A DNA stretch of 64,000 nucleotides from Verrucomicrobium sp. (lineage in GTDB: Bacteria > Verrucomicrobiota > Verrucomicrobiia > Methylacidiphilales > GAS474), in assembly GCA_028283855.1 (NCBI GenBank), contig JAPWJX010000003.1:186001-250000 (forward strand). Direction: 5' to 3'. Position numbers and translations under genes: made by a program. Each line of letters opens with the position of its first letter. Positions within the stretch are counted from its first letter, which is position 1. Below are positions 30,569 to 33,478 of this stretch, piece after piece. The notes under the pieces were generated by a model. It saw only the letters and a list, made by a program, of their open reading frames with translations, searched no databases and was not told the DNA's origin.

Positions 30569-31735
30569 CTAACGGCGGCACCGGTAAACCTCCTCCAAGT
30601 GGCGGCGGGCAATCGTATCCCAGGCCAGCGCCCGGCACGTCGCCGCCTGCTCCGCCAGCAGGCGGGCGAGCGCCGGCTCCCCGTGCGCCAGCTGCCCCTC
30701 CAGCTCCAGCAGCTTCAGCGCCAGCGCCATCGGCGAGCGCGGCGGCACCAGCGTCAGCCCCCCGTGCCGCGCCTGGAACTCCAGGAACGACGGAATCGCC
30801 GAGCAAACCACCGGCCTCCCCCGCCCGATCACGTTGGAAAGCGCCCCCGACATCGAAAAAAACTCCCCGTGATAATCATTCACAAAAATATCGGCCCGGG
30901 CAAAGGCCGCCTCCTTCTCCTCCTGGGAGAGAAACCCCGTCACCGTAATCCGGTCAATCAGGTCCGGCGCCCCCGGGGCCAGCCGCGCCACCTTCCGCGC
31001 CATTCGGTCCAGGATCGGCTGCGCGTCCTCCGGATGGAGCCCGCCCGCCACCGTAAGCCGGAACCGCGGCGGCAAAAGCGCCAGCGCCTCAATCACCTCC
31101 AAAATCCCCTTCGTTTCCTTCAGAAAGCCGAAGCAGCAGAGTTCGATGCCCTCCCGCTTCCTCCCCTCCGGCACGGCCGCCGCCGCAGCGGTCCCGGGCC
31201 GGAAATCCCCCAACGCATGCTCCACGTGAAAAATCCGCCCGGGCGCAAACCCCAAATCCCCCAACCGCGCGCACCCCTCCGCCGTATGCGCCACCACCGC
31301 CGCTGCCATCGGCCCCCGGCGGTTCAGTTGCCGCGCCAGCCGCTGCCAGCCGAAATTGGCCTGGTGGCGCGGCAGGTAAAACTTATGCCACGGCGAGCGC
31401 CCCGCCTGCTCCACCGTGTGAAACGTCACCGCCACCCGCTGCCGCGAAAGCCGCCGGACCAGCCACCCCAACACCGCAATATTCCGGTTCGAGCCGAAGA
31501 ACGCGTGCTCATGCTGCACGTGGACCACATCGGCCCCAGCGCACCGCTCCGCGAGGGATTCATAATAGCGCCCCACCGCCTCCGCCGACCGCCCCCGCAC
31601 CGAGGCCAAGTCGATCGGCTCCACCTCCACCGCCGCCCCCGCCGCGACGAGGCTCCGGGAGAGATTCTCCGCATACGTCGCCACCCCGCACGCGATCCCA
31701 TAGGTGGAGATGAGCCGGATTCTCATGCGCGCCAT
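30569..31735 (-). CDS. GT-B glycosyltransferase (GT4-like)
   Basis: 388 residues (ATG 31735; ATG 31726 is equally possible). The N-terminal domain begins IRLISTYGIACGVATYAENLSRSL with the donor-glycosyltransferase GVATY loop, then DVVHVQHEHAFFGSN. The C-terminal domain has LCCFGFLKETKGILEVIEAL and ITVTGFLSQEEKEAAFARADIFVNDY, ending with GEFFSMSGALSNVIGRGRPVVCS, the nucleotide-sugar region of GT4. It transfers a sugar from a nucleotide sugar to an unknown acceptor. Confidence 0.85.
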   Translation of the reverse strand: MARMRIRLISTYGIACGVATYAENLSRSLVAAGAAVEVEPIDLASVRGRSAEAVGRYYESLAERCAGADVVHVQHEHAFFGSNRNIAVLGWLVRRLSRQRVAVTFHTVEQAGRSPWHKFYLPRHQANFGWQRLARQLNRRGPMAAAVVAHTAEGCARLGDLGFAPGRIFHVEHALGDFRPGTAAAAAVPEGRKREGIELCCFGFLKETKGILEVIEALALLPPRFRLTVAGGLHPEDAQPILDRMARKVARLAPGAPDLIDRITVTGFLSQEEKEAAFARADIFVNDYHGEFFSMSGALSNVIGRGRPVVCSAIPSFLEFQARHGGLTLVPPRSPMALALKLLELEGQLAHGEPALARLLAEQAATCRALAWDTIARRHLEEVYRCRR

Positions 31736-31756
31736 TCAATACGCCCCGACCCATAA

Positions 31757-31814
31757 GGCAAGACAAAAGCCGCATATATGCGGCTCCACCTAAAAAGAAG
31801 GGTGGCAGTCTTGC
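31757..31814. repeat. Nested inverted repeats able to form a three-way junction (element B)
   Basis: An outer stem GCAAGAC (31758-31764) with GTCTTGC (31808-31814) encloses a perfect 18-base palindrome AGCCGCATATATGCGGCT (31768-31785) and a second hairpin CCACC-N10-GGTGG (31786-31805). The right outer arm ends three bases before the GTG of the XRE regulator, so the element overlaps its promoter or leader. The left arm shares GGCAAGACAA with element A at 29092. Confidence 0.7.
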
Positions 31815-31817
31815 AAT

Positions 31818-32090
31818 GTGGATCCCCGCAAACAGCTCGGCCTCAACGTGGCGCGCCTCCGCCACCTCGCCGACATGACCCAGGAAGAGCTATGCGAAGC
31901 CGCCGAGATCGACCGCTCCTACCTCCAGCGCATCGAAACGGGGCGGATGAACCCCTCTTTCCAAGTCCTCTACAAGATCGGCAAAGCCCTCCACGCCTCC
32001 TGGAACGAGCTTTTGTTCCAGATCGACCTCCACCCCCGCCCCCAAAGCTTGCGGGAAGATTCACCCACCTCTCGCCGCCGCAAAAGATAG
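31818..32090 (+). CDS. XRE-family helix-turn-helix regulator
   Basis: 90 residues from GTG 31818. The HTH_3 domain covers residues 5-65: LGLNVARLRHLADMTQEELCEAAEIDRSYLQRIETGRMNPS, followed by FQVLYKIGKALHASWNELLF. It resembles the small controller-type regulators of restriction-modification and other accessory loci, but no such genes follow. The basic tail is SRRRKR. The start has no Shine-Dalgarno sequence, and element B directly abuts it, suggesting autoregulation. Confidence 0.85.
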   Translation: MDPRKQLGLNVARLRHLADMTQEELCEAAEIDRSYLQRIETGRMNPSFQVLYKIGKALHASWNELLFQIDLHPRPQSLREDSPTSRRRKR

Positions 32091-32107: not shown

Positions 32108-33478
32108 TTAGGAGTTGAATTCAGCGATAGGGCGCCACTGCTGATTGGCAGAGTCCCAAAATAGCGTTCCTTCTTGAAGCTGATTCAGTCGCACCCACTC
32201 CGCAATAACTGGCTTCTCATAAGGCCCATAGCTCGCCTGGCCGAATCCCAAATAAACTCCTGGATCGGCATTGGCTACCATTCTTTGTACCTGCGATTTT
32301 GCTTCGATTGTCTGCGCTTCTTGCTCAGCAAGCCGAGCTACACGCTTCCGCTCGTTTTCCCTTAAGACTTGAAGCGCCTGCTTAAAGGTGTCCAAAGCCT
32401 GCTTCAGGTAGCCAGCAGCAATGAATTGAGAAAAGCACAATGTCTCATCCAAGCCATAACCGCTAGTGATATGAAGAGTGGAATATTCCACAACAGGCAA
32501 CTCAGGATTATAGCTAAAACGCCTATCAGGACCTCCGCCTTTGTTCACATAGCGCCAAGTCCTATCAACAATCTTTCCATCAGCGGGTGCCCGCCTCACT
32601 ATAATCCGCCGCAAATCCGCCTCTAATTCCAAGGAATCAAATAAGACCGCCCCATACGTCTCATTTGATCTGATCAAAATGCGGTCTGGGAAAAAATAAT
32701 AGTCAATCTGCTCCGTAGAAAGGCGATACGGAGTTACATTAGCTTTAATTCGCGGCGGCAAGGAAAAGCCGAAAGAAACGCTTCTCGTATCAAGCTCCGC
32801 CGAAGCTCCCGCATGATACTTGCGCTCCGGCATATCGATCCGGCCCCTAGCCCGGATATATTGAAACTCTTTGCAGCGACTTACGGTTTCCAGAGCTTGG
32901 CGAAGTGCGTGATAATTCGCCGCAGCCTGATCACTCAAATCAAACATCAAAACCGCCTCTAACCGGCTCAAATCCACATAATAGGCCCCAATCCAGGCAG
33001 GAATAAACATCCAGAGAATCGCTGTCACTAATGGTTTGGGAACTGAAGACTCAGGATAAAAAATGGCGGTTATCCCTGCTCCTCCGAGAATCAGGGCCAC
33101 CCATAACCAAAGCGTCTTTACCCAGCTTATCCGCCTCGCCCGCTCATTGAGCTCGTTTAAAAGCTGTATCGACGAGGCATCCTGCAAAGCAGCCATGTCC
33201 ACCCGCCTCGCTTCCGCCATTTGGAGAGCGTGCGAATATGAACCTGCGTAATCGGAAGGGGTCTTTCGGGAAGGATCGACGGCGATGCGATTTGGCCTTG
33301 TGGAAGAAGGAAGATACGTGCGGTACTGGAAGCCTTCGGCCCCCATGGAAATGTAAGTTCCGCGAGGGCCCGTGCCGACCCGCAAACCCTTGATTCCCGT
33401 CGAAAACCCTGATCCTGAAGTGGATAGATTAAATCTAAAGGGCCCAACCCGAACCGATTTACGAAAAGTGAATCCCAT
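32108..33478 (-). CDS. DUF4236 membrane protein, AT-rich and probably acquired
   Basis: 456 residues. The N-terminal 55 residues are the DUF4236 domain (MGFTFRKSVRVGPFRFNLSTSG, then GPRGTYISMGAEGFQYR). Two membrane helices lie at about 122-170 (LWLWVALILGGAGITAIFY and TAILWMFIPAWIGAYYV). A long soluble region follows, and the last 40 residues (YEKPVIAEWVRLNQLQEGTLFWDSANQQWRPI) resemble a GYF-2-like module. The function is unknown. The gene is clearly less GC-rich (roughly half G+C) with different codon use, and its ATG is only 19 bases from the 3-prime end of tRNA-Tyr, as in an insertion beside a tRNA. Confidence 0.8.
   Translation of the reverse strand: MGFTFRKSVRVGPFRFNLSTSGSGFSTGIKGLRVGTGPRGTYISMGAEGFQYRTYLPSSTRPNRIAVDPSRKTPSDYAGSYSHALQMAEARRVDMAALQDASSIQLLNELNERARRISWVKTLWLWVALILGGAGITAIFYPESSVPKPLVTAILWMFIPAWIGAYYVDLSRLEAVLMFDLSDQAAANYHALRQALETVSRCKEFQYIRARGRIDMPERKYHAGASAELDTRSVSFGFSLPPRIKANVTPYRLSTEQIDYYFFPDRILIRSNETYGAVLFDSLELEADLRRIIVRRAPADGKIVDRTWRYVNKGGGPDRRFSYNPELPVVEYSTLHITSGYGLDETLCFSQFIAAGYLKQALDTFKQALQVLRENERKRVARLAEQEAQTIEAKSQVQRMVANADPGVYLGFGQASYGPYEKPVIAEWVRLNQLQEGTLFWDSANQQWRPIAEFNS

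Follow-up and report, generated by a model that had tools for sequence, protein, structure and literature searches.

Small XRE-type autoregulators and the present locus

The C proteins of restriction-modification (R-M) systems, such as C.BclI, C.AhdI, C.Esp1396I and C.Csp231I, are small XRE proteins with a single domain. They bind palindromes located immediately before the genes that encode them, and the transcripts of these C genes are commonly leaderless (PMC4824078). A leaderless repressor gene that has a dimer operator near its -35 region and faces a divergent gene is also found for PaaR2 of prophage CP-933P and for lambda CI at OR2/PRM, where CI bound at OR2, close to -35, activates the leaderless PRM (PMC8630535). 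Furthermore, palindromes upstream of the regulators' own genes are already known in bulk from XRE palindromic motif clusters, for which 9 of 10 tested pairs were bound in EMSA, and autoregulation via palindromes is common among XRE proteins (PMC12565409); a term search of the text of that report found no leaderless genes, start-codon distance or Verrucomicrobia.

The XRE protein of interest is encoded in the window, which is the whole stretch of 64,000 nucleotides of Verrucomicrobium sp. DNA that was analysed. It is likewise a small single-domain protein, for which the C proteins are the closest solved structures, PDB matches including C.BclI (9.5e-11) and C.AhdI (2.8e-10), and it matches the PADLOC entry Control_protein (8.8e-10). 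A palindrome just upstream of the protein's own gene is common to the C proteins and the switch proposed below, in which the gene would probably be leaderless as well, and the recognition-helix position of the base-reading residue in the C proteins matches that in the XRE family. Unlike the R-M C genes, however, the window gene has no restriction or modification gene among its immediate neighbours, which are glycosyltransferase, DUF4236, lysine-2,3-aminomutase-like and RNA-methyltransferase-like genes, and it has one proposed operator, whereas the C genes have two in tandem (C-boxes). The half-sites also differ, being GCCGCAT here and GACT or CTAAG in the C-protein systems. No second operator was found in the window, both half-site matches within 3 kb belonging to the one palindrome. 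Because there was no R-M gene among the neighbours checked and no second operator, the gene was not classified as that of an R-M C protein. Compared with lambda and PaaR2, which have three or four operators, the window gene is without such a set, and its product of 90 aa is without the S24-type C-terminal domain; no phage genes were found adjoining it.

The upstream element had been described in the sequence-only reading as a 7-bp outer stem, an 18-base perfect palindrome and a 5-bp hairpin that are packed in 57 bases, with the last base 3 bases before the GTG at 31818, and the coordinates agree with this description (Table 1). The palindrome, which is centred 41.5 bp upstream of the GTG, is well beyond chance, because the 18-mer, allowing up to 3 mismatches, has one occurrence in the window (chance 0.01), and because GCCGCATNNATGCGGC has exactly one occurrence in the 2.56-Mb genome. 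Genome sites with 1-2 mismatches numbered 29 per strand, including the exact one, versus 14 for a reversed-pattern control. A mobile repeat was considered and rejected, as the element is single copy in its own genome and a search of two genomes of the same genus yielded none.

Table 1. Features of the element and of the adjoining genes, in window coordinates
Feature	Position	Strand	Remarks
Divergent glycosyltransferase gene	30569-31735	-	Start at 31735 or 31726; possible second target of the same operator
Outer stem, left arm	31758-31764	+	7 bp with the right arm; pairing not kept in relatives
CAA (TTG on the minus strand)	31759-31761	+	9-12 bp left of the palindrome in 18/24 relatives
A-tract on the left palindrome edge	31765-31768	+	Kept in the XRE family: A12 and A14 invariant, A13 nearly so
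Perfect 18-bp palindrome AGCCGCATATATGCGGCT	31768-31785	.	Half-site GCCGCAT; 2-bp centre 31776/31777; proposed XRE operator
Expected -35 position, GCTCCA	31783-31788	+	Poor match; overlaps the right edge of the palindrome; placed by geometry
Small hairpin CCACCT...GGGTGG	31786-31805	+	Arms 31786-31791 and 31800-31805; 5 Watson-Crick pairs and 1 G-U; pairing not kept in relatives
-10-like box CAGTCT, preceded by TGG	31806-31811	+	6 nt before the GTG; family form CAnnnT
Outer stem, right arm	31808-31814	+	Overlaps the -10-like box; pairing not kept in relatives
XRE/HTH_3 regulator gene, 90 aa	31818-32090	+	HTH_3 E 2.7e-12; GTG start is the putative transcription start
Convergent gene, N-terminal DUF4236 domain	32108-33478	-

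Conservation of the palindrome and of its distance from the start codon

XRE relatives were gathered from the order and class of the window, first by protein and then by profile, and their assignment to Verrucomicrobiota was judged from one named relative. A phylum-wide search at E 1e-23 returned the window's own gene only, and the relatives were given by a class-level sample; tblastn of the XRE protein found no close homologues on genome contigs and one weak match on viral contigs. The identical 18-mer was found upstream of the XRE gene of L007, a locus from the window's order, the leader of which is the same as that of L198, a record named Verrucomicrobium. The upstream regions of L084-L087 contain GCCGCATNNATGCGGC, the palindrome variants being GCCGCATATATGCGGC in L084, GCCGCATTTATGCGGC in L085 and L087, and GCCGCATGGATGCGGC in L086, and the other relatives have GCGCGCTATAGCGCGC, GCGAGCTACAGCTCGC, GCCATCTATAGATGGC and similar palindromes.

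In the core relatives (n = 24), the palindrome centre was located 41-44 bp before the start codon, with the imperfect palindromes of L009, L023, L088 and L302 located by eye. An unbiased inverted-repeat scan of 100 bp upstream, which included subfamilies with quite different palindromes, indicated that 39 of 58 nonredundant relatives have the centre of their best inverted repeat between -44.5 and -40.5 (shuffle mean 2.9, maximum 6; binomial p 6e-35), a set that contains the core members from which the idea of a position lock arose. Among the more distant members, which were scanned first, about 21 of 37 were at -40.5 to -44.5, and the best repeat of control genes was at that position in 11 of 133 (8%). 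Related bacteria keep such a palindrome at the same spacing upstream of the start codon, and its sequence varies along with the DNA-reading helix of the regulator. The bare motif is not diagnostic, since the palindrome with AAA in front is common elsewhere, with at least 119 contig stretches from genomes containing it, and of the 246 pattern occurrences inspected only 1 was followed by an XRE relative.

Distant XRE subfamilies have palindromes of their own, mostly at the same -42/-43 position, such as CACGAGG..CCTCGTG (L090, L091, L093 and L095), ACGTCCG..CGGACG (L071 and L072) and ACCAACG..CGTTGGT (L016 and L057). A degenerate second copy, AAAGCGGATTATATGCGGC, was also observed about 37 bp upstream of the palindrome in L005/L006, and is perhaps a second operator.

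According to the sequence-only reading, the element would, as RNA, form a three-way junction containing the whole leader, with covariation among homologous leaders as the check and unconserved pairing in relatives as the refuting outcome. In an alignment of 15 leaders, the proportion of paired cells was 92% for the palindrome, 47% for the hairpin and 38% for the outer stem. With fixed registers, which were anchored on the palindrome and the start codon with a slack of 3 bases, the palindrome formed 5.8 of 7 pairs versus 2.8 in shuffled sequences, the outer stem 4.2 of 7 versus 3.7, and the hairpin 3.8 of 6 versus 4.0, and the RNAalifold consensus consisted of the palindrome alone, with the outer stem and hairpin absent. 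The pairing of the palindrome was, therefore, borne out in the homologous leaders, whereas that of the outer stem and hairpin was at chance level. Because only the palindrome pairing is kept in relatives, the three-way junction is a property of the window sequence alone, in which the outer stem and hairpin exist but lack conservation. The left arm of the outer stem had appeared to be conserved (GCAAG), but this is actually the CAA element left of the palindrome, which is unpaired with the right side.

Promoter, recognition helix and the proposed switch

Of the 24 core members, 21 have a CAnnnT box that ends 5-8 nt before the start (shuffle mean 1.6), as do 12 of 164 control starts. CAnnnT includes the A and T that are the most important in a -10 element. 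The anti-Shine-Dalgarno pairing of the family was -1.45 kcal/mol versus -1.69 kcal/mol for shuffles, the first starts of the other window genes averaging -4.4, and the start codon was GTG in 45 of 58 XRE family members, far above other genes. The -10-like box, the general lack of a Shine-Dalgarno in the family and the GTG starts together suggest a leaderless mRNA, so that transcription probably starts at or next to the GTG, and the operator would then be at -41.5/-42.5. Only for the window gene is a short leader possible, since AAGGGTGG (-6.2 kcal/mol) may be a Shine-Dalgarno there, though at a long distance. No consensus sigma-70 promoter was called in the element region, and this absence fits a weak promoter in need of help. 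If the transcription start is assumed to be the start codon, the putative operator is near -42 as in the lambda PRM type, at -41.5 here and at -40.5 to -44.5 in the 39 of 58 relatives; the position of OR2 in lambda is -42.

The recognition helix of the window XRE protein is EIDRSYLQRIE. Across the family, the third half-site base was G in 13 of 13 xRR proteins, which have Arg after the helix Arg, and in 0 of 11 proteins that have Ser, Gly or Thr there (Fisher 4e-7), although the residue and the base each change 3 times on the protein tree, so that the independent evidence is about 3 events, and an independent-pairs test of the residue-base match had too few pairs to reach significance. In C.Esp1396I, T36, which was matched by eye alignment to the residue after the helix Arg, contacts an operator base, and T36A abolishes binding (PMC4041747). 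An operator base that tracks the recognition helix would be expected for a co-evolving dimer operator, and an RNA stem would be without reason to do so.

It is highly probable, from the sequence comparisons, that the palindrome is the operator of the adjacent XRE protein, that is, a single -41.5 site at a weak, probably leaderless promoter, with autoregulation likely. We infer that an XRE dimer would bind by reading both GCCGCAT half-sites via its recognition helix (DRSYLQR), and that a weak promoter, with a poor -35 at the palindrome edge, CAGTCT as the -10 and TGG before it, would start transcription at or next to the GTG. Initiation on the resulting leaderless xre mRNA would be without dependence on a Shine-Dalgarno. 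From its -41.5 site the dimer would be in contact range of RNA polymerase, like lambda CI at OR2 of PRM, and the predicted outcome is autoregulation, either by activation of its own weak promoter, which is somewhat favoured, or by occlusion of the -35 region, resulting in repression.

The divergent gene, here that of the glycosyltransferase, would be a candidate second target of the operator, and the CAA to the left of the palindrome possibly serves as the -35 of a divergent promoter. In about 20 of the 24 core loci, an approximate count by simple ORF picking, the upstream neighbour was divergently oriented, and the divergent neighbours vary, including response-regulator receivers and surface proteins as well as the glycosyltransferase. 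A response-regulator receiver domain was found in the divergent neighbours of L007, L008 and L085 (just below the Pfam cut-off in L085), and those of other loci are DUF2726, GYF_2 or surface/lipoprotein-like genes.

Sign of regulation, RNA readings and meaning for the family

The operator could also be purely repressive, a sub-case that differs from the operator reading only in the sign of regulation, where the dimer would block the xre -35 region, and perhaps the divergent promoter too, with no contact-based activation. The same conservation evidence applies to this sub-case, the palindrome adjoins the -35 position, and repression of their own genes is described for many XRE proteins (PMC12565409), but an activator-dependent promoter is better suited by the exact -41.5/-42.5 lock, the conserved weak C-initial -10 and the absence of a consensus promoter. 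Pure repression is, in our estimation, a real possibility but a somewhat doubtful one. Activation would be slightly favoured over repression because of the operator position and the conserved weak -10, and since class II activators bind at this -41.5 position, shut-off is at best as likely as activation. The earlier suggestion of a regulator site in DNA that shuts off its own promoter is, therefore, strengthened with respect to the site, for which both the position lock and the agreement between operator base and recognition helix speak, whereas the shut-off is no likelier than activation.

Alternatively, the palindrome could work at the RNA level, as a leader hairpin that governs how the xre mRNA is translated or degraded. 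The alignment column pairs 17-28, 18-27 and 19-26 covary, with both sides changing, but the symmetry of a dimer operator would yield identical covariation, resembling that of a stem, and there is one exact arm sequence per recognition-helix class (GCCGCAT NN ATGCGGC in most DRS proteins). Furthermore, the -10-like box is between the palindrome and the start codon in 21 of 24 relatives, so that the element would be upstream of the transcript. A leader hairpin is, hence, improbable. It is very improbable that the palindrome, lying between the divergent genes, is a hairpin that terminates transcription: there is a TTTT after the hairpin on the minus strand, and the palindrome class is at apparently unrelated places in many genomes, as in the contig stretches noted above, but no terminator was called in the element region, no co-directional gene runs into the element on either strand, and the palindrome is locked to the xre start codon. 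A riboswitch-like element formed by the complete RNA three-way junction is hardly credible, since its stable fold (31740-31830, -38.8 kcal/mol, z -5.51, with 0 of 200 shuffles equally stable) stands against the chance-level pairing of the outer stem and hairpin in relatives and their lack in the consensus fold, an Rfam search that gave nothing at the element up to E 5 (the sole match, ar14 at E 2.3, being inside the xre gene and far below its cut-off) and its not being found in two same-genus genomes.

With the palindrome read as an operator, we tentatively propose, as a plausible extension, that a diversified Verrucomicrobiota family of stand-alone XRE regulators may form private lambda-PRM-like leaderless self-activating switches with one -42 palindrome each, in which operator and helix would change together and the divergent gene would often be thrown too. 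Among the open-access papers searched, none was found to describe how this XRE family combines a start-codon lock with a leaderless layout, and the transcription signals of the host bacterial group have been little studied. The apparent RNA oddity becomes a test bed, a regulator family whose operators are readable at a constant spacing from the start codon, so that genome sequences by themselves could yield the rules of protein-DNA recognition. A further suggestion is that the logic of PRM and the C proteins, a weak leaderless promoter with an operator at -42, may be in use outside phages and restriction systems.
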